In this document: one piece after another, positions 11,601 through 63,620 of the stretch
How positions within the stretch are numbered: the first letter of the stretch is position 1
Layout: each line of letters opens with the position of its first letter
Origin: Gautieria morchelliformis
Lineage: Eukaryota; Basidiomycota; Agaricomycetes; Gomphales; Gomphaceae
Assembly: GCA_015179125.1 (NCBI GenBank)
Contig: WHVA01000207.1
Location: forward strand, 62,001 to 126,000
Length of the DNA: 64,000 bases
Direction: 5' to 3'
Notes under the pieces: model-generated
The model's input: only the letters and a program-made list of their open reading frames with translations
The model's database searches: none
What the model was told of the DNA's origin: nothing
Position numbers and translations under genes: made by a program

Positions 11601-11849
11601 GCTGTCATGTGGCGACATCACCTAAAGAGAAGCTCCTATGTGATTCGAATAGGGCGACTACTTATGTCATTGAATGGATGAGAGCGTTGTGTCTCCGACA
11701 GGTCCCCTCTTCATCCGGGGTCTCTATTTAACAGAGACCTCGCACATTCATTCCCACTCGCTTGTCTCGCACGCCCTTCCTCGCTCAAACGCTTTTTTGG
11801 CTGACACACTAACTTTGACGCCGCACGGTCTTTCCGTAGGGATTTAGGG

Positions 11850-11954
11850 CTATGGATAAGTTACTTGGGACTATGGATAGGTTACTCGGGACTATGGATA
11901 GGTTACTCGGGACTATGGATAGGTTACTCGGGACTATGGATAAGTTACTTGTGA
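11850..11954. repeat. 21-bp tandem repeat, 5 units
   Basis: Five direct copies of CTATGGATAGGTTACTCGGGA-like units lie about 150-255 bp upstream of the chosen F-box start. The three inner units are identical in the core and the outer two carry AAG...TTG variants. On the minus strand the array reads as repeated SNLSIVP, which is a by-product of the period being a multiple of three. Confidence 0.9.
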
Positions 11955-12104
11955 CTGTGAGTGGCACATATTGATACAAATCCAAACAAGATATCTGAGG
12001 CATGTTACCCTCAGCTCCAAGCCTTTATCTTCCCCGCTCAGCATCAGGCCCACGTTTCATCTCCTGACGTGAACGTCACTACCACGGCCATCCTGCGAAC
12101 AACC

Positions 12105-12890
12105 ATGAATAATAGTCTACCCCGAGAACTCATTGATAAAATTATGGACCATGTTGACAAGAAGGACGGTATTAGCCGCTTTCACCTGCGCGCCTGCTCG
12201 CTCGTTTGCCGATTCTGGCTTCCCTCAAGCCAACGTCGCCTCTTTCACCACATAAATCTTCTGCCTCGACCAGTGCGGCTCGCAAAGCTGTATGCACAAA
12301 TCCAGCGACTCGACCAGGTTCTACTCAACTCGCCCCATCTTATCAGTCATATCCTAGTGCTGGAGCTGTTTTTGTCGAACAGTGAACATTCTATATACGA
12401 CCACCCCGGCTCCCCAAGTTGGATTGCGATAGATAATCCACTCACCCCACTATTGCGCAAGCTCACCCATGTGCAGATACTCAAAATTTCAAACCTGAAT
12501 TGGAGTTTATTGCCAGGGGATTTGAGACAATCACTTTGCCAGGTACTTGAGCTTCCCTCGATGGCGTTTGTATGTATCAGAGTCGCTCTATTTGCTCCCA
12601 CGGACGACTTTACGAACTTTATAAATCATGCCAGAGGCCTAACAGCCCTCTCCTTAAATTTTGTCGACTTGTCATGGGATGCTCAGAGTCTTTTGGAAAC
12701 CAAACATGGGGAGGACAATAAAGAGAGGTTCGAGCGGAATCGCATTCCCCTTACTAGCCTGGATATGAAGTGCTGGCCCAACAATTCCGCATTTATTAGC
12801 TGGCTCCTTGGACCTCGATCACATTTGGGCGTATCGCACATCCATACATTACACATAGGGACCCTTGACACTGAAGATGATAGTATCAAC
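12105..12890 (+). pseudogene. F-box protein gene, 5' part, cut by a Ty1/copia insertion
   Basis: The start MNNSLPRELIDKIMDHVDKK is followed by LRACSLVCRFWLPSSQRR and LFHHI, a typical fungal F-box (residues about 3-50). In this family the F-box binds Skp1 of an SCF ubiquitin ligase. A leucine-rich, LRR-like substrate region follows (e.g. LTALSLNFVDLSWDAQSL). I chose 12105 because the upstream in-frame ATG at 11961 adds a low-quality N-terminus before the canonical MNNSLPREL. The frame runs open for exactly 262 codons to ...DDSIN, where the copia element starts. The last five bases TCAAC reappear at 25433-25437, and the same frame resumes there. The allele is split over 12.5 kb and presumably null. 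Confidence 0.85.
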
Positions 12891-13067
12891 TGTTAGTAAT
12901 CGGGACGATGATACCCGAGGCAGAGCCGGCACGCACTTAGCCGGAGGTTCGAGATCGCTCTCGACCCCGGGTCGCTGGTGCGCCGGCATCGCATCGGCAC
13001 AGCAGCTCGAAGAGATTGGTAATACAATGGACATCATATTTTGTATATAAAGGCAGAACGATCTACT
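12891..13067 (+). repeat. copia 5' LTR, left piece
   Basis: It begins TGTTAGTAATCGGGACGATG and matches the 3' LTR (25210-25432) up to CAGAACGATCTACT, where the gypsy element inserted. It contains TTTTGTATATAAAGG, a plausible TATA region of the LTR promoter. Confidence 0.95.
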
Positions 13068-13760
13068 TGTTACGTATCGAGATTTCCACTAAGTCGGAAC
13101 TGGAAAGGACAGCGGCTTCAACTTATAGGTTGCGCCCCCAATGAACTATCGTCCTAGGTATTTCGGAAATGAGCCGGAAGTCGGAAAGTACTGGACCAGA
13201 GGTTTGGTCGGAACTTGAGTCGGAACTGAGGCGGAGGGCGGAAGACGGAAGGCTGAGAGAGAGACTGAGATCTTGCTAGACTCGCTGTGCTAAGAACAGG
13301 AGATGGAGCGAAGGAAATCAAGTATCGAAGGTGATTATCTGATTGCAGAATAACAGACATACATGAGGGGGTTTTTATACAAAGCGCAAAGCAACAAGTA
13401 ATGGTGTTGTACTAAGCAAATTCCGGAGGAAGCGGAAGTCGAGTACAATGTGTGGGAACTAACTAATTGGGAACAATGGAACTACAAGGGGGGTTCAGGG
13501 TAAGGTAGAACAATGGCAAAGAACAAGGGGTCGGGAAATCATATCTGACAACGAACTACAAGGGTGACCGGATATATGGTTTTGATGGATGGCGAGGTGG
13601 GTCCGGTGGGTCCGAGTAATAGAGTCGAAAGAACAAGGGAAATGTACAAGGGGCGGAATGTCGGAAATGTCGGAGGGGCGGAACGTGTTGCGGAACTATT
13701 GGAGAGGCGGAATGTATGGCGGAACTGAGGGTCGGAAATCGGAAATGAACGGTTGTAACA
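13068..13760 (-). repeat. gypsy LTR (3' LTR in element orientation)
   Basis: 693 bp, TGTTACG...TGTAACA, apparently identical to 20407-21099. It is rich in CGGAA/GGAA words on the plus strand. Confidence 0.95.
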
Positions 13761-13882
13761 GTATCTCCCTTCTAAGGTCGAGCCCCGCGAGACCACAAGT
13801 CGGAATCACGTGACCTGTGAACAAACGCGTCGGAGTTTGAAATATAGGCTGAAAGACAAACGCGTCTTCTCCCTATTCCATC

Positions 13883-15107
13883 ATGAGTGCCCCAGTAGAT
13901 TTCTCTAAGATGTCCAGCGCGGAGATGAAACAGCACTTCGCTGATATGCTCGCGCAAAAGGAAATGGCCGAGAAACGCGAGGCTGAGGAAGCTGCGCGGA
14001 AAGAGAAAGAACGTCGGGAGAAGGAGCGGAAGGAGCAGGAGAGGAAAGAGCGCGAACGCCGCGAGGAGGAGCGCGTTCGTGAAGAAAAACGGAAACGGAA
14101 CGCGGCACGGAAGGCTGCTGCGGACAAGGCTGCTGCAGAGAAAGCGGCTGCGGAGAAAGCGGAAAGGGATCAGGTGAGTCGGAAATGTCCGGCGGAAATG
14201 ATTTTGAAATTAACTAGAGTTCTTCCAGAATCATGTTCAGGACGAGTCAGAGTCAGACTCGGAAGGTTCGGCGGAAAGTACACCGACTCCGGAAGGAAAA
14301 GGGAAGCAAAAGGAGATTGCGACCCCGGTGAACCTTGTGGCGGAACGGAAAACTCGAGCGGACGCATTCCAGAAGGCTCGAAAGGAGAAGTTGAATCGGA
14401 TGTTAGAACTCCGTGAACTGGGGCCGGAAAATCCCGCGACTAAGAAGCGGAAAACTCGGGACGGTGATGAGGAGAAGGCCCCTTGTGACCCATGCGAGTC
14501 TAAGGGGGTGGATTGCACGTGGTCGAGCAATCCACGGGAAACGTCGTGCGACCAGTGCCGTGACAGGAAAAGGCGCTGCGTCGTGGACGGGTGCGCTTCG
14601 AGGCTGGAGCGAAAGAAACAGAAGGTTGAGGAGTCAAATCCGAAGGCGGAGCCGGGACCGAGCGGAGGGAGGGCCGAGGAATCCTTTCCGATGACCGGAA
14701 AGTCGGCACAGGCGGTGTTGAACCGGTTCACCATGGCTTCTCCACTCCTCGACATCGCCGGGTCGCTGAGGGCCATGCGGGAACAGCAACGCGAAATCCG
14801 GGATATCATGATCGATATGGCCGAGGTTCAACAGCATCAGGTTCTGTCGATTCAGAACCAGATGACTGTCATGTCCACAGTGCTACAGCAGTTGACGCGG
14901 GAAATGAGGTGGCGGAATGATTTGGTCCGGGACCGAATGGATGCGCGGCTGCGGGAGCAGGGAGTTGGGGCGGAAGCGGGTTCGAGCGGTGGGGCGGAAA
15001 CGAGGGAGAGGGTGGAAATGGAGTTGGTGAGTGTCGAGGTAGGGGAGGCGGAAAAAGAGCCGGAAGCGGAAAAGGAGGTCGAGGCGGAGACAATGGGGAA
15101 GGAGTAG
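13883..15107 (+). CDS. antisense reading frame of the gypsy element: coiled coil plus Zn2Cys6-like cysteine cluster
   Basis: On the strand opposite to gag-pol, between pol and the 3' LTR, two adjoining open blocks (13883-14416 and 14328-15107) encode one kind of protein; a short intron between them is possible. The N-terminus MSAPVDFSKMSSAEMKQHFA leads into a long charged K/E/R/A coiled coil. Next comes an acidic segment, then cysteines spaced C-x2-C-x6-C-x10-C-x2-C-x6-C (starting at CDPCESKGVDC; second half CDQCRDRKRRC), the spacing of fungal Zn(II)2Cys6 clusters. A glutamine/methionine-rich helical part and a V/E-rich tail follow. A diverged relative of the same N-terminus lies at 62566-62880 in another element copy. 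The function is unknown; DNA binding is inferred from the cysteine spacing only. Confidence 0.65.
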
Positions 15108-15236
15108 GGGTGTCAAGGACTTGTAGATAATTTCTTGAAGTGTCGGAAAATAGAGTAACGGAAAATTAATCGGATTTTGACAAATGACTTGAGGACTGTA
15201 AGAATCAATGGGCGTCGGAAATGAGGTCGGAAATGA

Positions 15237-18200
15237 CTAGGGCGTGGAAATGGGGCCAGGCTTGTCAGGATATGACTTGTGGAAATCAGAGACGAGGTCA
15301 GAGGCGTGGTCAAGTTCCGTGGCGGAAATCCACGAAGTCTCTTCGTCAGTGTTTTCATAGCCTGCCCACTTGACTAGGTACTGGAGTTGGCAGCGGTATC
15401 TTCTGTCGAGCTTGGAGTTGAGAATTTCCGAAATCTCATATTCCGGTTCTCCGTCGATGACGACTGGCGGAGGCGGAGGTTGTTCTCGATTCGGAATTGT
15501 ATTCGGAACTGCGGGTTCAAGCATGGAGACATGGAATACCGGATGTACTGCGCGCATATTGTCAGGAAGTCTGAGGGTGAAAGAACGACTGCCGGCCTAG
15601 CGATGATCTCATAAGGACCGAGGTATTTCTCAGAGAGCTTCTTCGAGGGGCGAGTGGTGCGGAAGTTTTCCGCTTTGACAAAGGCTTTGTCGCCTATCTC
15701 GAATGCCGGTTGCGGAAGGCGTTTCCGATCGGCGGAAGTTTGGTATCTCTTCTGGGCAGCGGTAATGTTCTCTCGGAGGTGCTGGTGAAGGTCGTCAAGT
15801 TCCACAACGAAATCTCGGGCTCTTGCAGAGGCGAGGTCGCGTTCAGGGTGGATGGCGAGATTCGGGTGGTAGCCCTTGTTGGCATAAAAGGGTGAAATTC
15901 CGGTGGTAGCGGAAGGCGCGTTGTTGTAGGCAAATTCCGCGAGCGGAAGAAGGTCGGACCAATTGCTATGTTGGTAGTTGCAATAGACGCGGAGATACTG
16001 CTCAAGGGTCTGATTAGTACGTTCCGTTTGTCCGTCTCCTTCGGGGTGATAACCGGAGGTGAAGTGGAGCTTCATGTCGAGAGCCTTGCCGAGTGTGCGG
16101 AAAAAGGAGGACACAAATTCGGATCCACGGTCGGAAGTGACATGGGAAGGGATTCCGTGCTTGGAAAAGACGTGGAGCACAAAGAGCTGTGCGAGCTGGG
16201 CGGAAGTTATGGTGTCGTAGGTCGGAATAAAGATGGACTGCTTTGTAAGGCGGTCAACGATCACTAGAATGGTATCATAGCCGGATGACTTAGGAAGTTT
16301 CTCAATGAAATCCATGGATATCGAATTCCACGGTTGTTCCGGGATCGGAAGTTGTTTCAGGAGGCCGTAGGGTTTGTGACGTTGAGGCTTGGCTCGCATA
16401 CAGGTGGTGCATGACTTGCAGTAGTCTTGGACCATTGTGCGGAGGAGAGGCCAAGTATAGGTGCGTCGGATTATGTCGAGGGTCTTGTTCTGGCCTTGGT
16501 GTCCTGAGAGCGGATGATCGTGGCTTTGCTGGAGCACGCGAAGTCGTAGATCGTTGGTGTCCGGAACGTAAATCCGGGACTTGTACCGGAGAAATCCGTC
16601 GGAATCGAGGGACCATCCAGGACTGGTGGGGTCATCGAGGTGGGCTGCGGAGGTGGGGTCGGAACGGAGTGCGGATCGGATGTCGGAATGGAGAGACTCG
16701 GTGTCCATAATAATTGAGGCGCGGAGTAGCGGAAATGCAATGCTGTGGCACGCAGGGACGATGCCAGTTGCTCAGTGGAGAATACTGGGCGGAAATTGTG
16801 CGGATTAACGCTGGCATAGTCGCTACTCCCTCTTTTGGGTAGACGTCCCAACGTCTAGTGAGCGCGTCGGGTTTTGCTCCGAGCTTTCCGGGGCGGAAAC
16901 GGATCACCATGTTGAACTGTGAGAGGTATTCAGACCAGCGGACTTGACGGCGAGTCAAAATCTTAGTGGTTGCAAAATACTCAAGGTTCTTATGATCCGT
17001 TACAACGTCGATCGGATAAGTTGGACCTTCGAGGTAATGTCTCCAGATTTTGAAGGCTTCGAAAATCGCAAGTAGTTCCTTATCGTGGACGTCGTAGTTG
17101 AGTTCCGGGGCGGAAAAGGTGCGGGAATGAAAGGCGATCGGATGAATTTCTCCGTCGTCGGGTGAAATGATGGAAAGAATGGCGGCTAGCGCGTAGTCAG
17201 AAGCGTCGGTTTCGAGTACAAGTTGGGCATCAGGAATCCAGAAACCGAGTATGGGAGCCGTGGTGAAGGCCGATTTGAGAGCTTCAAATGCGGAACGGCA
17301 TTCCGGAGTGAAATTCCATGGGGCACCCTTCCTGGTGAGACGCGTGAGCGGAACAGTAATGTCGGAAAAATTATAAATGAAACGCCGGTAAAATTGGCGA
17401 AGCCAAGGAAAGACTGCACATCCTTAACACGTCGGGGTTCCGGCCATTCTTGAATTGCCTTGACCTTGTCCTCTGCCATGGTAAGACCTGTTGGAGAGAG
17501 GATGTAGCCGAGGTATTCGACCGTGTCGCGATGCCATTCGCATTTCTCTGCTTTTGCATAGAGATGATGTTTGCGTAGACGGCGGAGTACTTCGCGGACA
17601 TGTTCCCATGTTTTTCCGGTGTGTCGGAATAGATGAGGATGTCGTCAATGTAGACTAGGACGCATACGTCGAGGAGGTCGGAAAATACGTCGTTCATGAA
17701 TCGCTGAAAAGCGGCGGGAGCATTGGTTAGACCAAAAGGCATGACAGTCCACTCAAAAGCACCGTAGCGGGTGCGGAAGGTGGTTTTCCACTCGTCACCT
17801 TCCCGGATGCGGACAAGGTGATAAGCGTGCCGGAGGTCAATTTTGGTGTAGATCTTCGCCCTGCGGGGGTGTCGAGTAAGTCGGAAATGCGCGGAAGCGG
17901 ATATTTGTCCTTTTTAGTGAGGGCATTGAGTCCGCGGAAATCGACGCAGAGGCGGAGAGATCCATCCTTCTTCTTGACGAAGAGGACCGGAGCGCCGTGC
18001 GGAGACAGCGAAGGGCGGATAAAGCCCATGTTGAGATGTTCATCGACGAACTCTCGGAGAGTCAGGAGTTCACTTTGCGAAAGGGAGTAGATCGGTCCAA
18101 GGGGCGGAGATGCTCCTTCTTCCAATTCTATCTTCAAGTCGTAAGGTCGATGTTCAGCAGGTTTGTCGGCTTTGGCCTTATTGAACACGTCCGGGAAGTC

Positions 18201-18790
18201 ACGATATTCTTCCGGAACTGAGCTCATGTCGACCGGGGCGGAAGTCGAGGCGGAACGAGCCTTGACTGAAGCCGAATCGGAGAGGTGAAGCTGGAAAACG
18301 GTCGTATCTTCTTGCCGTTGCAATACGCGGAAAGCGGTGGCGGAAACGAGCGCAATTCGAGGAGCTTCGAGGGGCGGAGGGCTAAAGCGGGACCGGAGTG
18401 CGGAACTGAATCCACGAGCGGAGTTGCAGAAGAGGCCTGAGCCATCTTTGCGGACGACGTCGGAATAGACGGAAGTTGATCCGGGGTACGGAACTGTATT
18501 TGACCCAATGCCCAGTTAATCGACGGATTATATCGGGTGAGCCAATTGTGTCCTAGTACAACGGAACAGCTAGCATCTAGCGGAGTAACGTAAAACGTAA
18601 CTTCATGGTTGTCCCCAGTAGCGAAACGGATAGACAGATCCACAACTTGGGAAATTCCCGTGTTGGAAGACCCGTCGAAAAGGCGGAGCGGAATAGTCGG
18701 AATATTGCGGGTCGGAAGTTTATGTTTCAAAACAAAGTCGGAATCGAGGAAACAATGAGTCGAACCGGAGTCGACCAGTGCTGTAAACGG
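15237..18790 (-). pseudogene. gypsy pol region (protease, RT, RNase H, integrase, chromodomain)
   Basis: Read on the minus strand in order: an aspartic protease with LVDSGSTH near 18770, a reverse transcriptase with [17 protein letters not shown] and the YIDD box near 17650, and an RNase H region around 16900-17100. An integrase follows, with a zinc-binding HH-CC part (SCTTCMRAKPQRHKPYG) and core motifs SMDFIEKLPKSSGYDTILVI and TSDRGSEFVSSFF. Last comes a chromodomain-like tail containing YLVKWAGYENTDEETSW. This order (RT before integrase) is diagnostic of Ty3/gypsy, and the tail of chromoviruses. The region is broken about five times and is treated as a fossil. Confidence 0.9.
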
Positions 18791-18933
18791 GGGTGCGGAA
18801 ATGGTGTCGGAAGTGAGCGGAACAGAGAGAGAGTCGGAGGACGAAAGAGCGGATGCGTTGAGTTTAACCTCGTTTGTCGCACGAATGGGGTCAACACAGC
18901 CCTCGGCTCGTGCGGAGGCCAGAGGACTGCTGA

Positions 18934-20373
18934 CTATTTTTTTGAATCCGCAGCGGGAACCGCTTCGGATTTCTCTTCCGTCTTTGCTGCGCGGCCCTTG
19001 GCCTTAGCAGCGGAGGCGGAAGCGCGAGTGCAGTCGCGAGCGACGTGACCTCCTTTGCCGCAGAAGAGGCAAAGGTTGTTGTCCATGCGTCGCTGGCGTT
19101 CTACAGGGGTTAGTTTTCCGTCCTTCCCAAGTTTGTCGGAAAGATCCGGGGTGCTCTTCCGGGCGTTGGTGTTAGAACCAGAGGCCTGGTTGTTCCGAGG
19201 GGTGTTGTTGTTGTTCCGGTTGCCGGAGTTGGATCCGGAACTGTTGTTGTTGTTGTTTCCGGAGTTGGTGTTTCCGGAATTGGTCTTCTTCTTGTCTTTA
19301 TCAGACTTCTTGTCAGAAGACTTGTCGTTCTTGCTCTGGGCGGAAGTTTCACGAGCAATCTCGGAGTGTCTTTCCCAGTAGCGCGAATCGATGGATTGGG
19401 CGAGGTTGCGGAGGTCGGTAAGGGTGGCGGGTTTTCCGACGCGGGCAATTTCATCCTTGATGCGGGATGGCAAGCCCATGTAAAACTGGCGTCGGAGTGC
19501 GGCTTCTCCCCATTGGACTCGAGGAGCGAGCTGCTGAAACGTGACGATATATTTAGCTATCTTATGAGTGTCTTTCATGCGAAGCTTATCGAGTTCGTTC
19601 TCCGCATCGGCTTCCATATCAAATGGTCCGAAGTTGCTGCGGAGTTCGGAAATGAAATTGGGGTAATCGTCGGCCCAGTCGACGAGAGCGAACGGATCCA
19701 TGAGGGCGGGTTCGAAATAGTCGAGCGCCGTGCCTCGGAGATAGGAAAGGGCATAATTGACCTTTCGTTCGTCGTCGGGAAAGGCGTCGGGACGATCACG
19801 GAAATTGAGTTGAAGCTGAACCAGAAATGGCTGGAGCTTCTTGGGGTCGGAACCGTCGAACTGATCTGGTTCGCGGACCTTTGTCTTGGGGCGTGGTGGT
19901 GCTTGGGCCGGGCGCTGGAGTTGTCCGGCTAGCATGGCGATGGCTTGTGCAAGATCCGGAACTGGCGCGGGCGGAACTGGGTTGGCGGGAATCTGAGGTG
20001 GAATTGGAGGTGGAGGACCGCCGGGAGGACCGCCTGGGGGACCGCCGGGTGGGCCGCCATGAGGGCCGCCTGGAGGGCCGCCTGGAGGTGGTCCTGGTGG
20101 AGGTGGTGGTGGTGGAGCTGGGCGTCGGTATGACGCTGCTGTTTGTTCGCCGCTGCTACTCGTCGAATTCCCGTCGTAGTCGGGATTGCCGTCGGGATTA
20201 GCGTCGGGAACTTCTTCGAAACGTTGCGGAAAAGCATCGGAAAGCTCATCGTCGGCACGAGAGCTGTTGGAGGGTTCCGCGTGCCTTGGTGCTGCGGATC
20301 TAAGATTGCCAAAATAAGAGAGAGCTTCGACAGCTCCTGCTCGAGCTGAAGTAGCTGTGGTACGAGGAGGCAT
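18934..20373 (-). CDS. gypsy gag
   Basis: A 479-codon open frame on the minus strand. It has a low-complexity Pro/Gly-rich stretch of PPGGPPGGP repeats (residues about 85-130), a capsid-like central part (QPFLVQLQLNFRDRPDAFPD, LRGTALDYFEPALM) and an Asn/Ser/Gly-rich linker. A single CCHC zinc knuckle, CLFCGKGGHVARDC, lies near the C-terminus. These are the parts expected of gag in Ty3/gypsy elements. It looks whole. Confidence 0.9.
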   Translation of the reverse strand: MPPRTTATSARAGAVEALSYFGNLRSAAPRHAEPSNSSRADDELSDAFPQRFEEVPDANPDGNPDYDGNSTSSSGEQTAASYRRPAPPPPPPPGPPPGGPPGGPHGGPPGGPPGGPPGGPPPPIPPQIPANPVPPAPVPDLAQAIAMLAGQLQRPAQAPPRPKTKVREPDQFDGSDPKKLQPFLVQLQLNFRDRPDAFPDDERKVNYALSYLRGTALDYFEPALMDPFALVDWADDYPNFISELRSNFGPFDMEADAENELDKLRMKDTHKIAKYIVTFQQLAPRVQWGEAALRRQFYMGLPSRIKDEIARVGKPATLTDLRNLAQSIDSRYWERHSEIARETSAQSKNDKSSDKKSDKDKKKTNSGNTNSGNNNNNSSGSNSGNRNNNNTPRNNQASGSNTNARKSTPDLSDKLGKDGKLTPVERQRRMDNNLCLFCGKGGHVARDCTRASASAAKAKGRAAKTEEKSEAVPAADSKK

Positions 20374-20406
20374 AGTGATAGTTATCGGGTGGGAATCAGA
20401 TAATAC

Positions 20407-21099
20407 TGTTACGTATCGAGATTTCCACTAAGTCGGAACTGGAAAGGACAGCGGCTTCAACTTATAGGTTGCGCCCCCAATGAACTATCGTCCTAGGTAT
20501 TTCGGAAATGAGCCGGAAGTCGGAAAGTACTGGACCAGAGGTTTGGTCGGAACTTGAGTCGGAACTGAGGCGGAGGGCGGAAGACGGAAGGCTGAGAGAG
20601 AGACTGAGATCTTGCTAGACTCGCTGTGCTAAGAACAGGAGATGGAGCGAAGGAAATCAAGTATCGAAGGTGATTATCTGATTGCAGAATAACAGACATA
20701 CATGAGGGGGTTTTTATACAAAGCGCAAAGCAACAAGTAATGGTGTTGTACTAAGCAAATTCCGGAGGAAGCGGAAGTCGAGTACAATGTGTGGGAACTA
20801 ACTAATTGGGAACAATGGAACTACAAGGGGGGTTCAGGGTAAGGTAGAACAATGGCAAAGAACAAGGGGTCGGGAAATCATATCTGACAACGAACTACAA
20901 GGGTGACCGGATATATGGTTTTGATGGATGGCGAGGTGGGTCCGGTGGGTCCGAGTAATAGAGTCGAAAGAACAAGGGAAATGTACAAGGGGCGGAATGT
21001 CGGAAATGTCGGAGGGGCGGAACGTGTTGCGGAACTATTGGAGAGGCGGAATGTATGGCGGAACTGAGGGTCGGAAATCGGAAATGAACGGTTGTAACA
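20407..21099 (-). repeat. gypsy LTR (5' LTR in element orientation)
   Basis: 693 bp, apparently identical to 13068-13760 over its whole length. It is followed by CTACT, the target duplication, and then the rest of the copia LTR. Confidence 0.95.
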
Positions 21100-21104
21100 C
21101 TACT

Positions 21105-21148
21105 TGAGATCGTAGAATAACAGATTATTATATCTCCTTCGTTCCACA
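21105..21148 (+). repeat. copia 5' LTR, right piece
   Basis: TGAGATCGTAGAATAACAGA through CTTCGTTCCACA matches the last 44 bases of the 3' LTR (to 25432). It is separated from its left piece by the gypsy insertion. Confidence 0.95.
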
Positions 21149-21170
21149 GGTTATGGGCCCCGGCCATAAC
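21149..21170 (+). other. copia primer-binding site region
   Basis: GGTTATGGGCCC directly follows the 5' LTR. Its complement GGGCCCATAACC corresponds to the anticodon-loop region of eukaryotic initiator tRNA-Met, which fits the internal (half-tRNA) priming known for Drosophila copia. The site sits in a small palindrome, GTTATGG...CCATAAC. Confidence 0.6.
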
Positions 21171-21238
21171 TAAACTATTAAACATCTAGCTTACTCCAAC
21201 TACGTTCTATACTCCAACAACTCAATAACCGATCGACG

Positions 21239-24200
21239 ATGTCGAGTAGCAACAACACGTACAAGATCGACCCCTTGAACGGGGATAATTACGCGGCGTG
21301 GCGCCGACGGCTCGAGTGGATACTCGATGATTTAGATCTGTGGGACGTGGCTATCGGCAGGGAGATGGAACCGAGACCGGCAGATGCCGACAAGGTCACT
21401 GCGACCAAGCAGCAGGAAATCGACAACTGGAGAAGGAAGGACAAGAAAGCTAGAAAAGAGATTTGCCTTAGAGTCGCCGATGAACAACTAGTTTACATCA
21501 ACCAGATGATGTCTGCATTTGCTGTATGGACTAGTTTACAAGCGATATTCGAATCTAAGGGAGCCGTAGGGATTGTAAATCTCCGAAGAGATTTCTTCCG
21601 GACGCTTGCCGAGGACGGCGCGAACATGGAGGAGCACGTACGCAAGCTCCGCGGCATTCAACAGGAACTGAATGCGCGGGGACATTACATCAGTGACACC
21701 GAGTTCTCGAACATGTTGCTGACGTCATTACCAGATTCTTGGTTGGCGTTTATTATGGCAGTAAACGCCAGTGGAGCCGGGACGACAGCTGATATATTAA
21801 TAGCTCAGGTCCTCAATGAGGATCGAGCATGGAAAGCTGGATCGGCACGGCAGACGGCGCTTAAGGCGCAACAACGTCACAGGTCCAAGAAAGGTGACTC
21901 AGGAGCAACAAAGGGAAAATGCCGAAATTGCGGCAAGAAGGGTCATTACATGAAGGACTGTTGGGCGAAAGGTGGCGGCAAGGAGGGCCAAGCACCGAAA
22001 TGGTTCAAATCAGGGAACAAAGAAACAGTCAAACAAGCGGAAGAAAAGGACTTCGCGTTTGTATCTAAGGAGGTAGCATACAGTGCTATATCTGCATCCG
22101 ACTGGCTAGCCGATTCAGCGGCAACAACACATATAGCTCGAAGCCGAAACGATTTCGCTAGCTATGCCGAGGAACCATCAGAAATTGAAGGAATTTCACC
22201 CGGTGCGGTACTACATACACAAGGCCGAGGCACTATATACATGGAATTCAAGATCAGCGCCAAGACGAACATGATCGAACTACATGACGTCAAGCATGCA
22301 CCGGATGCGCCGAACAACCTTATCAGCGTGGGGCGTCTAACTAATAAGGGCAACACGGCCACATTTTCAGGCACCGGCGTCGAATTCAAATCACGCGCCG
22401 GAGTTACCTTCGCACAGGGACAGAAGCGCGGAAGGCTATTCTGTATGAAGGCACGAGTCACTCGATCAATCGAGGCACGGGACTTTGCCACAGCGGCAAA
22501 GGGACGGTCATGGGACAAATGGCACAGGATACTAGGGCACATCAACATAAACTCTATAAAATTGTTGAAATCTAACGACCTAGTTACTGGACTCGAGATC
22601 GATGAGTCAAAAGAGCCAAGTCAGTGTAAAGCCTGCATACAAGGCAAACGGCATGTGGAGTCATTCCCCAAAAGAGCCGAGGACACTGTAGAACAAGTCG
22701 GTGACCTAACAGTATCCAATGTATGGGGGCCTGCCCAGACCGAGGGACCATCACGTGAAAAGTACTTCTATTCTTTCACGGATATCAAATCCAGGTACAC
22801 AATCATCTATTTTGGGAGCGCCAAAGATGAAGCGCTCAAACACTTTGAGACGTACAAAGCATTCCTCGAGACCCAAACAGGTCAGAAACTGAAGAGGTTT
22901 CGCTCAGATAATGGAGGGGAATATGTCAATAAAAATTTCAAGGAATTCTGTGCAAAATATGGCATTATCATGGAGACCACAGCTCCATACTCCCCAGCCC
23001 AGAATGGAATCGCCGAACGACTCAACCGGACCTTACTTGAGCACGCACGGGCAATGATATTTGCCAAGAACCTGCCAAAAATACTCTGGCCCGAGGCCGT
23101 GGCTTACGCATGTTATATCAAAAATCGATCACCCACGCGAGCGCTTGGAGATGACGCAACGCCGTTCCAGGCACTATTTGGCAAGAAGCCGAACATAGCA
23201 CCTCTAGAAGAATTTGGGACAAATTGCTGGGTTATGGTGCCGGATCAACGTCGAGCCAAACTTGATCCAAAGGCAGAAGAACATATCTTCGTTGGAGTAG
23301 CAGAACATGCAAAAGCCTGGAGGTATTACAATAAAGCCTCAAAGCATGTCCAAATTTCGAGAAATATTACATTCGACGAAAACGACAACAAACTCTACCC
23401 TATCCCAGATAACGACGATGACGACACGGCACCGCTCGAGGGGGAGCACTCACCGCGCGAGCATGTGCCAGACACGATCCCATCTACCCCGCAGATGTCA
23501 TCACCCCAGACGACACCCGTTCCTGATCCACCTGAACAAGCGCCAGCTCCACAGATTCGACGGAGCGCGCGTATCACTCAAAGACCAGATTATCGGAAAC
23601 TGAATGATTCAGGACACACTGAGCAGGTTTACATAACGAGAGAAATCTTCACTGAACCTGAGAATTTCAGAGCGGCGGTATCACGTGATGATGCGCCGAT
23701 CTGGGAGAAAGCGATGGAAATTGAGATGGACCAACACAAAACGTTAGGAACATGGGAATTAACAGAACTACCACCCGGACGAGTAGCTATCGGTTGCCGA
23801 TGGGTATATGCTGTCAAAACACAACCGGATGGACAATTCGATAAGGCTAAAGCAAGGGTTGTGGCTCAAGGATTCACACAGAGGCCAGGGATGGATTACT
23901 ATGAAATAACTTCACCCGTGGTCAAATTCGATTCACTACGTGTTCTATTAGCCATCGCAAACACACTCGATTGGGAAATTGAAATAATGGATGTCAAAGG
24001 CGCCTACCTCAATTCAACCATAGATGAGGAAATCTACATGCGCCAACGCAACGGTTTTGATGATGGATCTGGACGCGTTCTAAGAATATACAGAGCGCTC
24101 TACGGACTCAAGCAATCGGGACGAGCTTGGCATCAGCGCTTATGCAAATTACTACTCAATCTCGGCTTCCATCAAAGCACAGCCGATGAATGCGTCTACA

Positions 24201-25261
24201 TCAGACAAAATAAGGACTCAATTGAAGTCATATCAGTATACGTGGACGACTTTGGACTATTTGCTGATTCCAAAGGAGGGATGATTAAGCTCAAGGGGGA
24301 GCTTCATGGAAAATTCCCCTTAACAGATTTAGGAGAAATGAAGAAAATCTTGGGAATTAGAGTTGAGAGGAATAGGGATGAAGGAACACTGATCATGTCT
24401 CAAGGACATTACATCAACATCATACTCGATCAATTCAACATGGCTACGGCACATTCCATATCTACACCCCTACACAAAATGATCAAACTCACGACACCTA
24501 TGGACTCGACAGGTCCAACTGCTGAAGTACCCTACGCGAAAGCGATCGGATCATTAATGTATGCAGCACTCAGCACGCGACCTTATTTGGCCTTTACCGT
24601 ACAACATCTGAGCCAATTCACTACTACTTACGGAGCCGAGCACTGGACGGCGATCAAGCACACGCTCAGGTACCTCAAGGGGTCATGTGACGACGGCATA
24701 ACCTTCCGATGAGATGCCGGTCTCGACCTCGAAATATTTGTTGACTCAGATTATGCTAATAGAAACGACGCACTATCTATTAGCGGCTATGTAGCTATAC
24801 TAGGAGGGGGAGCCATTGCATGGAGCTCAAAGAAGCAGCGAACGATCGCGCTATCTACTACGGAGGCCAAATACATGGCACTTACCAAGGGCGCCAAGCA
24901 ATTGATCTGGCTAAGGCACTTCATCAAGGAGCTAGGAATAGATCAAGCCCAGCCCACATCACTTCAATCAGACAATCTAGGCGCCATTACACTATCGCAT
25001 GACGCAACGTATCATGCGCGTACCAAACACATCAATGTCGCATATCACTTCATCCGTGAGAAAGTGGCCTCTCACGAGGCATCACTTACGTACATACCGA
25101 CGAAGGAGAACGTAGCGGACATATTTACAAAGGGATTGGATTTACACCAACATAGGTATCTATTAGGGAAATTAGGATTTTGCCGAAGGGACTTCTCGCT
25201 GAGGGGGAGTGTTAGTAATCGGGACGATGATACGGCCGAGGCAGAGCCGGCACGCACTTAG
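21239..25261 (+). pseudogene. copia gag-pol polyprotein region
   Basis: In order: gag starting MSSSNNTYKIDPLNGDNYAA, with a CCHC knuckle CRNCGKKGHYMKDC; protease with DWLADSAATTH; a GAG-pre-integrase part (WHRILGHININSIKLL, CKACIQGKRH); integrase core (FRSDNGGEYVNKNFKEFC, YSPAQNGIAERLNR); a variable acidic/proline-rich linker; reverse transcriptase (WVYAVKTQPDGQFDKAKARV, SVYVDDFGLF); and RNase H near the end (VDSDYANRNDALSISGYVA, STTEAKYMAL). Integrase before RT is the Ty1/copia order. Most of it is open, with about one break. The frame runs slightly into the 3' LTR, as is common. Confidence 0.92.
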
Positions 25262-25432
25262 CCGGAGGTTCGAGATCGCTCTCGACCCCGGGTCGCTGGT
25301 GCGCCGGCATCGCATCGGCACAGCAGCTCGAAGAGATTGGTAATACAATGGACATCATATTTTGTATATAAAGGCAGAACGATCTACTTGAGATCGTAGA
25401 ATAACAGATTATTATATCTCCTTCGTTCCACA
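25210..25432 (+). repeat. copia 3' LTR
   Basis: A 223-bp LTR from TGTTAGTAATCG to GTTCCACA, preceded by the polypurine run GAGGGGGAG and followed by the target duplication TCAAC. It is nearly identical to the divided 5' LTR. Confidence 0.95.
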
Positions 25433-55700: not shown

Positions 55701-58700
55701 CGTAAGCAGCAGCACGCATGTAAGGGTGAGAGAATCGCTGGGCCGCCTGCATGGCCAGGCCAAGGGAAATGTCGGTAGCAACATATTCGACTATTAGGTC
55801 GGGGAATTCGGGGAGGACGTTCACAAGATGCTGCGTGAGCATACCGGTACCGCAGCCGACTTCCAGAACACGAATGACTTTCTTCCCACAGCCGACCAAG
55901 TCGGTGAGGAGCTTCCGGAAAATCGACGCACTCGCTTCACACGAGGGGATCACGGTGTTTTGCGGGCCATAAAAGTCCTGCATGATGTTGACCTTGGAAT
56001 ACAGCGCTTGTACGGTAGCCTAATGAGTTATTAGTACAGAATAATAGGAGTTCGTATCATCGCATGACTCACCGTCGAAGAGGTAAATATATCGCGGTGG
56101 ACCTTAGCTACTCGTTCGGTCACATCAAAGTATGATGGATGAGCCGCACGTAAAGCCGTAATGCGATTTGGCGCTAGAGCATCCTGGTCCGTGAGTTTCT
56201 TTGCGACATCCTGTGCATAGTCCCAGTAGCGTTGACGATGACGCTGGGACAAGGCGGTCAGTCTACGCATGCTAACACGCACGGCAGAGATACACACCTC
56301 GACGCCAACGACTACTGATTCTGCCAAGGTCTTCTTGATAGTCTCAATGGCGAGCGCATCGAGAGTTGTCCACAGAGCACGCGTGTTGCGCGTGAGCTCC
56401 CGGATGGTGTGTACTTCTTCAGCAGGATGCAAAGGAATGGAAACTGGCTGCCATTCGAGCTGGTAACGTTTCTTGACAGGAGTACTGATGGATTTGGAGT
56501 GCCTTGTCATCTCAAACCCACGGATCGTGCAGAGTCTCGCGCCCCCGTTGTCGACAATGAAGATATCGACAGATATGCCCCCTGGGCATATAGGTGAGTA
56601 ACGATGGACCGTGATCATCGGACGGCCTACCTGGGGTCCAGTTCTTTAACACAAAGTGCGCTGCAATCTCTTCAGGCAGTGTGGCCACCGCAAGAGCATC
56701 ATGCAACTCGACGCGAGCAGCTCTTGACGGGAGGAAATAGTCCCGCTTCTCAAAGTCGAGGATGACCTGCTCGTGCTCCATGATGAAGAACATGCAGCCA
56801 TGGAACACGGCGTCCAAAATCACGGGATCGAAGCGGTACGAGCCAGATCTGCATGGAAAAGATAAGTTTTACCGGAGAATCTACAGGGGGCTCCACACAC
56901 TCTGGTAAGTCGACAGGTCCACGCAGAGTCGCGAGCACCTCATCTTGACCTTGAACGCAAGACGTTATACGCTTGAAGTCCGCGCTATAGTCCGCGAAGC
57001 CCTTGAAGCCATGCTCATACAGATCCTCAATGCGACATGGACGCATACATCGCTCTTGGATCCCTGTAAGATTGAGTGGCGCATCATCGGTACTCTCGAC
57101 GTCAAACGACAGGAGACCCTGCGAGTGAATGCGATCGAAAACAGGACCCTGGCGGCAAAAGTCAGTACAGGATTCTCACGCGATGCAACAAGTCACCTTG
57201 TGGGCCCAGCTCATATGTGTGCCGTGACTAAGCGAAGACGACGTTTTCACATGCCATCGTGTACCATCAAGCCCCACCTCAACAGTGGCGGGCACGTCGG
57301 CTGATAGTGGGAGTGCAGCAAGGAATTCAACGTCCGTGAGCGTGCGAGCGCCGAACTCGAGCGCCATCTCGATAAAGCCCGCAGCGGGCATGATCGGTTC
57401 TGAATTGACGACATGACCAGCGAGCAGCGGATGAGTCTTCGAGTTGATGCGCAGACGGGGATGATTCAGTGGCCCGTTATGCGAGAGTAGGAGGCGGTGG
57501 AAGGCGGGCGTGTCAGCATGGAACGGGACATGCTTCTTGCTGAAAGGGTATGCAGGAAGCTTAACATTAGGATCCCATGTAGGACTGCCGTTCAGCGCGT
57601 CGAAATCCACGTCGTATCCATTGGTAGCGAGGCGTCCGAGCGACTGGAGGAAAGCGGCGCCTTCGAGTAACTCGCCTGTCTTTGCAGGGCGACGCGAAGG
57701 GCAGGTAATTCGGGAGGAGTCGACACCAGCCGAAGAAACGTACGAGGACAGGACGGGATGTGGAGAGATCTCGACATAACACATGCTCGGGAAATGGTTG
57801 ACGAGCTGCTCCGTGACCTGGTGAAACAGAACGGGTTGCCGCGCATTGCGCCAGTAGTAGTCGACTGAAAACGGCTGCTCCCATTTCCCGCCGGTGACTG
57901 TGGAATACATCGTCGTCGTCGGCTTACCTGCTTGGGGGAATCGTGAAAATACCTCCCCAACATGCGACTCGCACTGATATTTGCACACATCCATCAAATA
58001 TGAATGCACTGGCACCGGGATCTTCAGTCGGCGCGCAAGTATGCCACGGGACTCTGCGAGCACACAGAGCTTGTCCACGAGTGCGACGACCCCGGCGACG
58101 CTGACACCATCGGGGGAGTTGTAGCACGCGAGAACCAGACTCTGCTCGCGTTTAACATCTTCGAGTATACCTTCCTTGGCCAGGACTTTGTCGATCATTG
58201 CCTGTGCTTCAAGCTCGCCGCATGCAACCGCCGCCATCCCACCACCAACACTCTCCGCGACGCTCATCATCTTGGCCCTCGCCACGGCAACCTCAACCGC
58301 CATCTGCTTTGGCGCCGCACCCGAGGCATAGAGGAGGGCCGTCTCACCCGCGCTGTGCCCGAGAACAACATCAGGCTTGACCCCAAAGCTTCCGAGCAAA
58401 TCAAAAAGTGCAATCTGAAAGATTGTCAGCGCCGGAAGCGTAACCGTCCACTCTGACGACCTGGTCGACGAGCGTGGCCCGTCTGAAGTACTAGGCTCGG
58501 CGAATAATCCCGAGGTCTCGATGAGGGAACACCCCATGACGGAGCGGTATGCATCATCGCACTCGAACACGCTTTGACGGAAAGCCGCATATTTAGCAAA
58601 GAGCTGACGACCCATGAGAACGTGCTGGGGGCCTTGTCCACTGAAGACGAAGGCAAGTGAGGGTCGCATGCGGGGTGCGAGTTGCGCTTCGCAAAAGGTG

Positions 58701-60673
58701 ACTGCCCTGGGGATCTTACTGTGGGGATAATAAATTGCATATGAGCGCCATGTGAGCTGGCGTGCTTGACGGCCGGCGAGCTTGGCAAGGAAGGGCACGG
58801 TGTCAGGCGAAGCACTCGTGACTGCATCTCTAAGGAGATCTGCCATCACGCCGGCTGAGCGCGGGGACAGGCCACCAGCCATAATGAGGAATGCATCAGT
58901 CGGATATGCACGATGCTCATATTGTGTGAACCCTCCGGGCGACTGCCGCACAGGACCCTCGAGGACGACATGCCCATTAGCACCGCCAATTCCGAAGCTG
59001 GAGAGAGAAACGAGGGCTTTCCCGGAGGGTGAGCGTGGGGAGAATGGTACAGGTGCCGTTGCCGGAACGTGAAGGTTGTATTCATTCCAATGAATTTTCC
59101 GGTTAGGCACAGAGAAGTTCGCAGTCGGAGGGACGACATTATTTGCGACCATGTGCGTTACTTTCAAGAGAGACGCAAGGAATGCTGTGATCTCAAGGTG
59201 GCTATCGTGAGGTGAGCGTGAGTCGTGTGATATGGGAATCCTACAGCTCAAGATACGTACCCAAGGTTACCTTTGACGCTTCCTGCTAGGACGGGCGCAT
59301 CATCTGGTTTCTTGAATTGCTCACCGACCCAATTAGCCTCTGTCGGGTCGCCTGCCGCAGTACCTACAATGAAAAGGGTTCAGCATGTGCCAGAACTGAA
59401 CATGGGACACAGCGCGCCTGTGGCGTGCATCTCAACAAAGTCTGCTTCTATAGGTTCTCTTCCGGCGCGCTTATAGGCACAAGTCATGGCGGCCTGCTGG
59501 GCCGCTGCTACGGGCGCGTTCAGAGGTGCCTGATTTCCTGCGGCGTTGATGGCGCTGCCAAGAATCTAACGGAAACGAAGTCAACGGGTCGGTTGATGTG
59601 AGATAAAAATTGGGAGAAGAAAGGGAGCTGGGGGGATGACTAGAGGGTGGCTCACCGTGCCGTAAACATGGTCCCCATCTCTCATTGCGTTCTCTAGCGG
59701 TTTCAGAACGATACATGCAACACCTTCACCTCGTGCAAAACCGTCTGCAGACGCATCAAAAGGTTTGCACTTGCCATCTTTGGCGAGAACGCCAGACTGT
59801 GAGTACTGGATCCATTCGTTAATCCTGTACAGCGTTAGATTACTACGTAATCCAGAATATATGCGTTCGGAAACGTAAAAACATACCTGAGGTTCACTTG
59901 TGCACCACCGACGATAGCGCTTTCACAGTCCCCGGATCTGAGGGCCTGAACGGCGAGATGGGTAGCTATGAGACTCGATGAGCAGGCCGTGTCCACTGGG
60001 AGCGAGGGACCGTGCAAGTCGAGGTGATACGATATCCTGTTGGCGATTGTGGCAGGAATACCGGCAAATGTCGCGGGGAGGGAATGCGGGTCCTGTGGAT
60101 TGAATGAGCATGAACTGAGTAGCGAGGGTACCAGAGAGACGACTGACAGCCTCGCCAAGCACACTGGCATCGTGTCCCACGCCTGCGGTATACACCCCGA
60201 CCTTGGCTCCTCTGTAGTTAATGCCTGCGTCCCGCAGAGCCAGAAAAGCATGCTCGACTAGTTTTCGGGTAGCGAGGGGGAGGGCGGCAGCATCTGCTGG
60301 GGGGATGCCGAACTCGAGGGGGTCAAAGAGTGTTGGCTGCGAGAGGAATGCGCCGGACTTGGGGGTAATGAGGTGGGAGAACCTGCGGATGTAATAAGTC
60401 AGCGGAGAAGATGTGTAGTTTCATAAAGGACGCACGCCTCGAGATTAAACCTGTCAGAGGGGATGGGAGAAAATGCCTCACGCCTGTCCAGGAGGAAAGG
60501 CCAGAATGACGCATAGTCGAGGTTGTGGTCTTGATGGCCTGAAGGAAACTCTGCGGAGACCCCGACCTTGGAAGGTGGTAAGAAAGTTGAGGATATAGAC
60601 AGGTACTCAAGGGACATACAACTGCAATAGGAGTATCGGGAGTGGAAGGGGAAGCAGCTGGTGAAGGAGACAT
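52739..60673 (-). CDS. highly reducing-type iterative polyketide synthase
   Basis: The start is [18 protein letters not shown] at 60673, with an intron directly before [10 protein letters not shown]. Ketosynthase (about 60640-58960): the DTACSSS active-site Cys near 59990, EMHATG near 59425 and [16 protein letters not shown]. Acyltransferase (about 58670-57700): [18 protein letters not shown] and GHSAGE. Dehydratase (about 57450-56600): [17 protein letters not shown]-methyltransferase (about 55980-55430): [15 protein letters not shown]. Enoylreductase-like region (about 54750-54100): [18 protein letters not shown], lacking the glycine-rich GGVG cofactor loop. Ketoreductase (about 53960-53250): [11 protein letters not shown] and [18 protein letters not shown]. 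Acyl carrier protein at the C-terminus: [13 protein letters not shown] with the phosphopantetheine Ser. There is no thioesterase. About ten short introns. The product is unknown, probably a methylated, partly reduced polyketide. I see no tailoring or regulator genes alongside. Confidence 0.92.
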
Positions 60674-61050
60674 GACGCTCGACTCTCAGAGGGTTGAGCG
60701 TGCGCAGAGCCTAGAGAGCAGATGTCAAGAGCATTATAAGATGTGCTGAATGGGTAGCTGTGTCTGAAACAATAAAAATACGCATATCAATATAAATTAA
60801 CATCAGAACGAGCTGTCTGGCATACGAACCCCCGATTGAATACTTGAAAAATACCTAACATGGTATTCACTCTTATAAGACACTGTAGGGCGCCATCTGC
60901 TGTGGACGCTTGGCGGTAGATTGTGCTAGACCATATCTTGCGATAGGTCGACGGACCGAAGCCACAGAGACCACATTGACCACATTCGCACGTGATCACC
61001 TTTGATCGCCGTCGGTGAAAAGTACTTAGCTGTTCTGGCGCACGTTCAAT

Positions 61051-61142
61051 GCTGGTGTCGTGCTCGTGCTCGAGTGCTCGTGTACAGCTAAGATTTCAGA
61101 AGCATGGTACACGAGCACTCGAGCCATAGCACGACTGACAGG
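61051..61142. repeat. long stem-loop (about 34-bp arms)
   Basis: CTCGAGTGCTCGTGTAC at about 61068-61084 is inverted as GTACACGAGCACTCGAG at about 61107-61123. The pairing extends outward through TGTCGTGCT on the left and AGCACGACTGACA on the right with a few mismatches. The loop is about 22 bases. Confidence 0.75.
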
Positions 61143-61453
61143 CTGATTCTCGATTTCGTATTCAGGCATTCGCGGCGTACTGGTATACCAAGTCACGGGA
61201 GGATAGGAGGAGTAGCAGAGTTTCCTCTCTATTGATCATAGACACGAGCCACCTGGAATTTGATATCATTCGATGGTCTATCGCCGAGAATGACCGTGCA
61301 TGCCTCTGCGTGATATAATGGGGATAATGTACGTATGGTTAGGTTCGATCAGCGCCTAACCATATATTATTCGCGCCACGACGATCATCAGCAAGATTGG
61401 CTTGTGTGACTTGTAATGTCACGCCGTTACGCGTAAGTTACGCTCCCCACGGC

Positions 61454-61734
61454 ACTGTAGTATTTACGACCATTTGCTCACATCACGCATCACGGTGACC
61501 TCTGAGCCGAGCCATTTTGGCCTGTCGTCGCGCATCACGGCCCCCTCTCTGAGCCACAGTCCAGGCGTCACGCGGCAGCAAAAACGAGGCTGACTGGCGT
61601 GGATCTGTGGCCGAAATTCAGGTTTGAGCCATGTTCAGCAGCATCACGCATCAAGCTACCCATTGATCCACTGAGCCTACGAAACCGGCGGGTCACGCTG
61701 AAAGGTCATGAGCAGATGGTCGTAATACTACAGT
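61454..61734. repeat. 281-bp segment bounded by inverted repeats
   Basis: ACTGTAGTATTTACGACCAT (start 61454) is inverted at the other end as ATGGTCGTAATACTACAGT (end 61734). The arms are about 26 bp with two differences. The interior contains repeated ATCACGCATCACGG-type words. It may be a small MITE; no clean target duplication was found. Confidence 0.55.
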
Positions 61735-61899
61735 ACTAGTATGCTATAAGACGGTACCAGCACGAGACACCGTTTTCGCGGAATCACTGCCGAAATCCGC
61801 GGCAGAACAAACGAACCGAGTATTCGCTCAGTTTTGTCCAGTTTTAGAAGCCTTGATCGAATTCGAGCAAAAATCGCCCACACTCGTTGCAGGCGCGAC

Positions 61900-62290
61900 T
61901 AGAGCTCGGCGCCGCACGGTATACGGGTACGTACGGCCGTATGTCGTACAGCCAACCTTGTACCGTATCTGTACCGTATCCTGGGCCACCAAACTGCTTG
62001 ACGGTATACGGTCGTACGGACTTTACGGGACTTGTGGGGCACTAAAGATGTATTATAGTCATAGTGATTATCTAGGTACAGTATGTGTTATATACTTATT
62101 CCATCATCAGACAAGCAGCGGTGGAGTGACATCGTCACCAGTTGTGACACTCGCTATACCGGCCAGGAATACTCCCTATGGTTATCAATGCAAATGGGTG
62201 GTAATCTAGTGTCATAGTGGCAGGTCATGGGAAGCCTCCTGACATCTTGATGTCTTGTCATAAGTGTGTATAATTCTGGTCTTATTATAC
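61900..62290 (+). mobile_element. hAT terminus fragment, relative of the element at 3904
   Basis: TAGAGCTCGGCGCCGCACGG matches the hAT terminal repeat TAGGGCTCGGCGCCGTACC with a few changes. The following about 170 bp also match the left hAT end, for example CACCAAACTGCT, the CCGTATCxGTACCGTATxC words, and ATGTATTA(T/C)AG...TATCTAGGTA. The opposite terminus is not visible, so this is a truncated or short non-autonomous copy. The right boundary is a guess. Confidence 0.7.
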
Positions 62291-62565
62291 TGATGTTTTG
62301 CCACCCCGTTGGAATTGGGTGAGCGGGGGGGCACCGGGTTAAAGGTCCAAACCGATATCTTGTTCTACGTGCCAGTTCTATATGCCAGTTCCACTATCAA
62401 TTCACGATCAGCATTATATCCTTTCAAAGTGCTCTCTACCGCAACTGTCAACCCCCAGCCTTATTGTCATGGCCATAGTGCTAGGGTCATTCGCCGGCGA
62501 TTCATCACATATTTTACTACTACATTTGTCTTCTAAGGGTGCCCTCCTGGAGATTCAATGGTTTT

Positions 62566-62880
62566 CTAAAGTCCATTGTCAGCGTCATCAAGGGCCCAGA
62601 ATATTTCCAACCCACCTGTTTTTCCGCTGCCTTCTCTGTGGCTGCTTTTCTCCTCCTTCTCCCAGCGTGCCTTATCCCTGCGCTCTTCTTTCTCTTTGTG
62701 CTCCTTTTCCCTGTGCTGCTCCTCCTGGCACTCTTTTTCCTTGTGTTCGCGTTTGTGCTCCTTGGCCACACGTTTCTTGGCCAATTCCTTTTCCACAGTA
62801 ACATCGACGAAGCGCTGTTTTAACTCAGCACTGGACATTTTAGAGAAATCGCCATTTTGATCCATTATGGCTAAGGACAA
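62566..62880 (-). pseudogene. remnant of the gypsy antisense reading frame
   Basis: The minus strand reads NGDFSKMSSAELKQRFVDVT followed by a charged stretch rich in EHKE and EKE. This matches the start of the antisense frame at 13883 (VDFSKMSSAEMKQHFADM) at roughly two residues in three, then shares the lysine/glutamate coiled-coil character. The cysteine cluster part is absent here because the element is truncated. Confidence 0.7.
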
Positions 62881-63419
62881 GACATGTTATCACTCCTGCC
62901 TATCTTTTGAACTCCGCCACATTGTTCACAAGTCACATGACCCAGTTTGTGGTCTTGCGGGGCTTGAACTTAGAGGGGAGATACTGTCACGACCATACTA
63001 TTCCAATTTCTGACACTCACTTCCACTTCATTTCTGACATCCTGATACTTCTGATATTCACACCCCTTGTTATATCCTTTCTCCATTCAACTCTATTACT
63101 TGGACCCTCCGGACTTGACTCACAGCACAGCAAGACCATAAGTCTGTCCCCTCTGGAGTCCTGTTGTTCTGTCTTGTCAAATATGCTTTCCATCCCCTTG
63201 TTCTTTTGCCCATTGTTCTTGACTCTACCCTGCACCCCCCCTTTGTAGTTCTTTGTTCCTGATTAGTTACTTACCCTGTATATCATATCTGACTTCCACT
63301 TCCTTCGGAACATGCTTATTAGTACATCATTATATGTTGCCTCAGCTTTTTGTATAAAAACCCTCTCATTGTATGTGTCAGGGGACACCCTGTTTTCCAG
63401 CTCCAACACCACCTTGAGT

Positions 63420-63530
63420 TCCGCTTCCATCTCTGACTTGGCTTCCATCTCTGACTTAGCTCCCATCTCTGACTTGGCTCCCATCTCCGACTCGGCTCCC
63501 ATCTCCGACTCGGCTCCCATCTCAGGATCC
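63420..63530. repeat. 18-bp tandem repeat within the LTR fragment
   Basis: About six units of GACTCGGCTCCCATCTCC-like sequence follow each other directly (minus strand reads repeated MGAESE/MEAKSE). The same kind of GGAA/GAG-rich periodic sequence appears in the related fragment at 1983-2192. Confidence 0.8.
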
Positions 63531-63620
63531 GCTTCTGGGGGAACCCCCACCAGTTCTGTTTGCTTCACCAATTCCACTCCACTCTCTGACTTCTGCCTTC
63601 GGAACAGTGTCGGGAGTCAA

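Follow-up and report, generated by a model that had tools for sequence, protein, structure and literature searches.

A hypervariable antisense gene that may be exchanged as a cassette between chromodomain Ty3/gypsy elements of Gautieria morchelliformis

Antisense open reading frames (aORFs) between pol and the 3' LTR occur in the plant Ty3/gypsy elements Retand, Grande (gene23) and RIRE2, and a nuclear or DNA-binding role has been proposed for their product, according to the accessible portions of PMC11963269 and PMC7264820. A fungal case is brtn, the antisense gene of a Boty-like gypsy element of Botrytis cinerea (Zhao et al. 2011, as cited in excerpts of PMC7264820 and PMC8365987). HBZ of HTLV-1 is an antisense retroviral gene (PMC11963269, same portions). 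A figure legend in PMC2864245 names an additional ORF of unknown function, the legend giving no orientation, and the accessible sections of PMC3248453 hold nothing relevant on antisense ORFs.

The locus described here lies in a 64,000-nucleotide stretch of Gautieria morchelliformis DNA (contig WHVA01000207.1, positions 62,001 to 126,000), which we call the window. It contains a Ty3/gypsy element nested in the 5' LTR of a copia element, the split copia LTR pieces (12915-13069 and 21100-21148) matching 25236-25432. The gypsy element is young, its two 693-bp LTRs being identical. The parts of the nest are:

12915-25432: whole nest of gypsy within copia
13068-21099, gag-pol on the minus strand: Ty3/gypsy element with chromodomain
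13068..13760, minus strand: 3' LTR of the gypsy element, 693 bp, no difference to 20407-21099
20407..21099, minus strand: 5' LTR of the gypsy element, pair of 13068-13760
13063..13067 (left) and 21100-21104 (right), no strand: target-site duplication CTACT, from the flanking sequence
18934..20373, minus strand: gag (PF03732, E 1.6e-10; PF19259, E 7.2e-10)
15374..16708, minus strand: integrase frame (PF17921, E 4.8e-20; PF00665, E 2.9e-8)
15237..15557, minus strand: chromodomain frame, the end of pol (PF00385, E 1.2e-8)
21239-24712: long frame of the copia element

The matches to PF03732, PF17921, PF00665 and PF00385 all exceed the Pfam cut-offs. The pol of this copy (15237-18730) is interrupted and spread over several frames; protease and reverse transcriptase were sought in two short frames within it, at 17727-18730, where no Pfam family matched at E 0.01. 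Its chromodomain lies in a frame of 119 amino acids, and a 1257-residue frame is found in 17 of the 150 chromodomain matches listed for the genome. Assembly errors or fresh damage are possible reasons for a split pol despite identical LTRs. Beside the nest, a frame at 11961-12896 looks F-box-like by eye and terminates at the copia insertion; directly upstream of it is a 21-bp tandem repeat of about six copies (11826-11980). Minus-strand frames at 57176-60251 resemble, also by eye, polyketide synthase fragments.

The antisense gene lies directly inside the 3' LTR, on the strand that does not encode gag, integrase and chromodomain. The first-pass annotation, made from the letters of the window, had placed it there, and its start MSAPVDFSKMSSAEMK at 13883, its K/E/R-rich stretch, its cysteine pattern C-x2-C-x6-C-x10-C-x2-C-x6-C and its stop at 15107 are all present on the plus strand. 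A single continuous coding frame was not found; the frames 13883-14416 and 14328-15107 join only via a predicted GT-AG intron. The gene therefore comprises two predicted exons, 389 amino acids in total, between the chromodomain and the 3' LTR:

13761..13882, plus strand: leader from the LTR to the antisense ATG, 122 bp
13883..14173, plus strand: exon 1, 97 amino acids, conserved start and charged stretch
14174..14228, plus strand: predicted GT-AG intron, 55 bp
14229..15107, plus strand: exon 2, 292 amino acids and stop
14484..14579, plus strand: six-cysteine Zn2Cys6-like segment, from the cysteine alignment

The gene is predicted to be spliced. The intron donor GTGAGT is present in every one of the 30 rows, from 29 places, in which a start could be recognised; two further rows gave none. 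In 27 of the 30 an intron of 49-56 bp would keep the reading frame, and at L012, L016 and L040 only acceptors lying further downstream do so. The acceptor in the window was chosen for the best pyrimidine tract, further in-frame AG acceptors being present. The leader, 80-94% identical in copies bearing other class I cassettes, may possibly act as promoter and 5' UTR.

The 44-residue start of a relic elsewhere in the window finds at least 150 places in the genome, so the N-terminus is widely kept. The rest of exon 1 has a charged, repetitive sequence. Exon 2 encodes an acidic stretch, basic stretches that could serve as nuclear signals, the six-cysteine segment and a conserved C-terminal segment. 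The cysteine spacing recurs in the two classes of the protein, I and G; in an alignment of ten rows from both (A1) five of the six cysteines are invariant and the sixth is missing in one row. The exact motif is found in ORFs of 67 loci, some of which overlap.

This spacing had led the first-pass annotation to propose a fungal Zn(II)2Cys6 DNA-binding domain. In such domains basic residues sit between cysteines 2 and 3. The window protein has ESKGVD at that place and a basic run, RDRKRR, between cysteines 5 and 6. A search against the PF00172 profile gave 14.9 bits for the window protein and 11.2-17.8 bits for four others, the gathering score being 21 bits; eight of ten versions match at E up to 1, with a best E of 0.00093. 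The label thus holds for the spacing but not for the profile score of these five proteins or for the basic run, which falls in the second half of the segment, and because the scores are below the gathering score we use the term Zn2Cys6-like rather than assign the protein to the family. TRP28 (PF04195) was absent from the Pfam matches of the window protein up to E 10 and of the ten versions up to E 1. A search of PDB sequences gave no matches or weak helical ones (best E 0.021), a search of NCBIfam gave nothing useful, and no relatives were found in the viral contigs searched.

The gene is abundant. Exon 2 of the window gives at least 140 match rows in the 122-Mb genome, at least 114 of them without an internal stop, and the full-length matches listed are 63-100% identical. 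Together with two further versions as queries it finds at least 220 distinct places, a tally that takes in 134 of the 140 window-query rows (six short C-terminal pieces were omitted), every row of the two other queries and no class G rows; class G is an additional class revealed by a fourth query. Its donor is GTAAGT and its predicted intron 47 bp.

Most copies examined carry the frame antisense at the same place. It adjoins on the opposite strand in 121 of the 150 chromodomain matches listed: type A in 39, type B in 27, type C in 15, other class I in 31, class G in at least four (counted from the upper part of 149 class G rows) and type A exon 1 alone in five. Of the 29 chromodomain matches without an adjoining gene match, eight were read (C193, C374, C948, C388, C249, C460, C1076 and C354) and all eight hold a broken or partial gene; four more (C671, C575, C756 and C270) have an exon 1 match at the expected place, which leaves 17 others. 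At 19 stretches where the distance from gag predicted the gene, it was present in eight and other DNA in 11, and for C322, one of the 11, the gene is located further off; insertions, a wrong predicted distance or absence are all possible at these 11. One copy, L092 (C136:245221-246571), has an open pol frame of 1257 amino acids and an antisense gene reduced to its first 176 nt, and might reveal whether the gene is dispensable. Non-autonomous elements carrying the antisense gene alone were considered and found no support: other DNA interrupts L050, L057 and L040, and L055 (C489:9184-11584) is rearranged, an open antisense gene being followed by a reversed gag-protease stretch in place of pol.

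Contrary to expectation, the divergence of the gene does not track the divergence of the element. Twenty loci (L039-L058) were chosen by exon 2 similarity, and for 17 the LTR side was compared with the window. LTR identity in these 17 is 84-97%. Pol identity is 89-99% in 13 copies; of the other four, one retains just 33 bp of pol and three have no pol there. Exon 2 identity is 69-79% in 16 of the 17, L058 having 91.5%.

The clearest case is C315, of type F. Relative to the window its LTR is 98.3% identical over 603 bp (the last 90 bp differ), its leader 93%, its two exons 69 and 67%, pol 99.1% and gag 99.0%, and its own LTR pair differs by one gap and no substitutions over 614 columns. C465 (type B) has LTR 95%, exon 2 71.5%, pol 98.2% and gag 99.1%; C1 (type C) has LTR 97%, exon 2 70%, pol 98.1% and gag 96.6%. 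The class G copy C309 matches the window at 96.1% in the LTR, 98.5% in pol (258 bp) and 99% in gag, and its antisense protein has 28% of residues in common with that of the window over the alignment; seven local matches between classes G and I are at 33-37%. Of the 89 gag matches listed, 37 were linked to a class I gene, and the 26 of these with gag identity of 97-100% carry cassette A (10), B (9), C (3) or other class I (4).

Among 35 young copies the mean LTR difference is 2.2% within type A and 2.7% between types, and the mean pol difference 1.3% and 1.9%. The exon 2 difference is 3.0% within type A and 27.3% between types (34 rows, class G being unalignable as DNA), the low spread within type A owing something to the selection of its rows as best window matches. 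The LTRs do not covary with the cassettes. This speaks against the idea that the diversity arose because each cassette recognises its own LTR; a recognition site common to all cassettes may exist. Comparably deep exchange was not seen in the LTR, in 0.3-0.9 kb of pol or in gag of four copies. These identities suggest that the antisense gene is a hypervariable cassette which is swapped between elements as a unit. Such an exchange is invisible from the window alone.

The extent of the unit was estimated from an identity profile in 50-bp steps:

13820..15220, plus strand: exchanged cassette, approximate extent

Its borders are sharp, near 13820 and at 15107-15220, and the diverged stretch, which includes the intron, begins some 60 bp ahead of the ATG and ends some 110 bp past the stop. 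In C1 and C131 a complete type C or F tail is followed by about 32 extra residues resembling a type B tail. A 280-nt stretch over this extra tail and the following intergenic DNA is 95-96% identical to B; since its intergenic part is common to B, C and F, only the extra coding tail is evidence of a scar. That tail looks like the remnant of a replaced type B cassette. Over the first half, 14 of 16 windows show types C and F at 94-100% identity, but the second half differs between them, so exchange has occurred within the gene as well. Assembly chimeras with identical borders in many contigs are unlikely.

Tree comparisons agree in part with exchange. A single type A clade is rejected by the pol data (p 0.011), and the exon 2 data reject the mixed pol clade (p 1.6e-5), which has support of only 73/85 and was defined after the pol tree was seen. 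With the LTRs, a single type A clade is not rejected (p 0.106), and the mixed pol clade is (p 0.016).

Despite its divergence the gene is under purifying selection. Among 25 intact copies the median dN/dS of exon 2 is 0.17 (range 0.08-0.50; 295 pairs with dS above 0.02), and dN/dS exceeds 1 in one of 300 pairs, a pair with dS of 0.02 or less. In all six pairs tested, dN/dS is lower in the aORF frame than in any of the other five frames. In eight diverged copies with alignable pol, dS relative to the window is 0.89-1.43 for exon 2 and 0.04-0.24 for integrase (the pol values of L050, L055 and L057, which derive from unrelated DNA, were discarded), with dN/dS below 0.3; fast mutation or positive selection alone was therefore rejected, as high synonymous divergence is combined with strong constraint.

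Older relatives of the element bear on the age of the cassettes. One is in the window itself:

62734..63376, minus strand: relic of an older relative, LTR piece and exon 1 fragment

The LTR piece (63049-63376) is 72.5% identical, and the 44 residues of exon 1 (62865-62734) 54.5%. Neither pol nor a significant exon 2 match was found in 60000-64000. What had been described as a second gypsy copy is thus a small relic, though one that keeps the start of the gene and only that. Elsewhere, L113 (C407:48200-50600) has an LTR 75-80% identical to that of the window with the antisense gene start adjoining and 71-87 exon 2 residues at 47-49%, and L114 (C716:22700-24300) has the same gene start and exon 2 at 45-51% over 157-167 residues; both are remnants of a related, older family. 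Among six relics of class G, pol identity is 86-88% in four, 78% in another and, over 133 bp, 80% in the last. Class G is farther from type A than L113 and L114 are, yet sits on a far closer backbone, and this suggests, from one LTR comparison and short matches, that the split between classes I and G predates the present family. With its place kept, its constraint and its presence beside the LTR of an older relic, the proposal that this gypsy lineage encodes an antisense accessory protein stands up well.

Template switching during reverse transcription is common for LTR elements. We propose that the antisense gene would be transcribed from the 3'-LTR side, and that its intron could outlast retrotransposition because the gene is antisense to the genomic RNA used for copying, splicing acting on the antisense transcript only. 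Cassettes would be traded by template switching between co-packaged RNAs. The product would be a nuclear, nucleic-acid-binding accessory protein which regulates or protects the element, and rare versions of the cassette would be favoured, so that old versions persist. To this whole reading, an exchanged antisense accessory gene of a chromodomain Ty3/gypsy element with a nucleic-acid-binding product and an advantage of rarity, we give about even chances. The advantage of rare cassettes, escape from silencing and neutral capture rank close together as explanations.

Neutral capture is the rival that survives best, though we hold it to be rather unlikely. It supposes that template switching occurs readily in the stretch separating pol from the 3' LTR, that old cassettes are acquired from relics or from kindred elements belonging to other lineages or species, and that rare versions are not favoured. 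The exchange within cassettes and the tail scars speak for frequent recombination, class G relics exist, and a hypervariable 3' region has been described in plant LTR elements (a title cited in PMC11963269, of which portions were accessible). Against it, exchange of comparable depth was not seen in the LTR, pol and gag stretches compared, and the gene is constrained while several of its types sit on young elements.

Somewhat less probable again is escape from silencing. The antisense gene would be the sole stretch transcribed on both strands, double-stranded RNA and siRNA would focus there, and common cassettes would be silenced by sequence match while rare ones escape, so that the unit diverges and the protein stays constrained. 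The coincidence of the diverged stretch with the predicted antisense unit, intron included, fits this account, as do the high divergence of synonymous sites in the cassette and the low divergence of LTR and pol; an old cassette would, however, diverge in its intron and silent sites for any reason. A tentative extension, which we regard as no likelier than silencing itself, is that the retrotransposon maintains, in its antisense gene, an old polymorphism under selection, with homology-dependent silencing of the both-strand stretch as the pressure. Copies might then be competitors that each bear one of a set of interchangeable cassettes for recognition or evasion, by analogy with the old alleles kept at host recognition loci, a speculation of the same low standing. 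If silencing is the pressure, the cassettes would be the trace, within one genome, of an arms race between copies of the element.

A chance open frame or a host gene taken up once is very improbable: the charged, low-complexity composition of exon 1 could by itself keep a frame open, but constraint in one frame rules out chance, the intron donor and cysteines kept across classes speak against both, and the gene's position beside the LTR of an older relic rules out a single capture, of which the 220 or more places show no pattern and which does not account in full for the similarity, as the first-pass annotation had allowed it might.

The preferred reading, exchange of a selected accessory gene, leaves a protein under constraint whose gene is nevertheless exchanged whole, in strongly divergent versions, between backbones that elsewhere are 1-3% apart. 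To our knowledge the function of antisense accessory genes of LTR elements is not settled. Here the role of the gene becomes testable, by looking for a property that differs between types and for better spread of rare types. Antisense ORFs at this position are already known; the exchange of deeply diverged antisense cassettes appears to be new, and we found no report of it in a literature search that consisted mostly of titles and covered few subscription papers.

The fungal gene has in common with the aORFs of Retand, Grande and RIRE2 its antisense orientation, its position between pol and the 3' LTR and its presence in most copies (PMC11963269 and PMC7264820, accessible portions). The plant aORFs encode TRP28 (PF04195) or no known domain in those portions, and the fungal gene differs in its six-cysteine protein, its chromodomain element, its predicted intron and its exchanged cassettes. 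It resembles brtn as an extra antisense gene in a fungal gypsy element, a likeness of description taken from citing excerpts. With the fungal Zn(II)2Cys6 factors (PF00172) the window protein shares the cysteine spacing, and it is unlike them in its profile score and in the placing of its basic run. The likeness to HBZ is one of arrangement, an antisense gene read, as would apply to the fungal gene, from the 3'-LTR side, and no homology is claimed.
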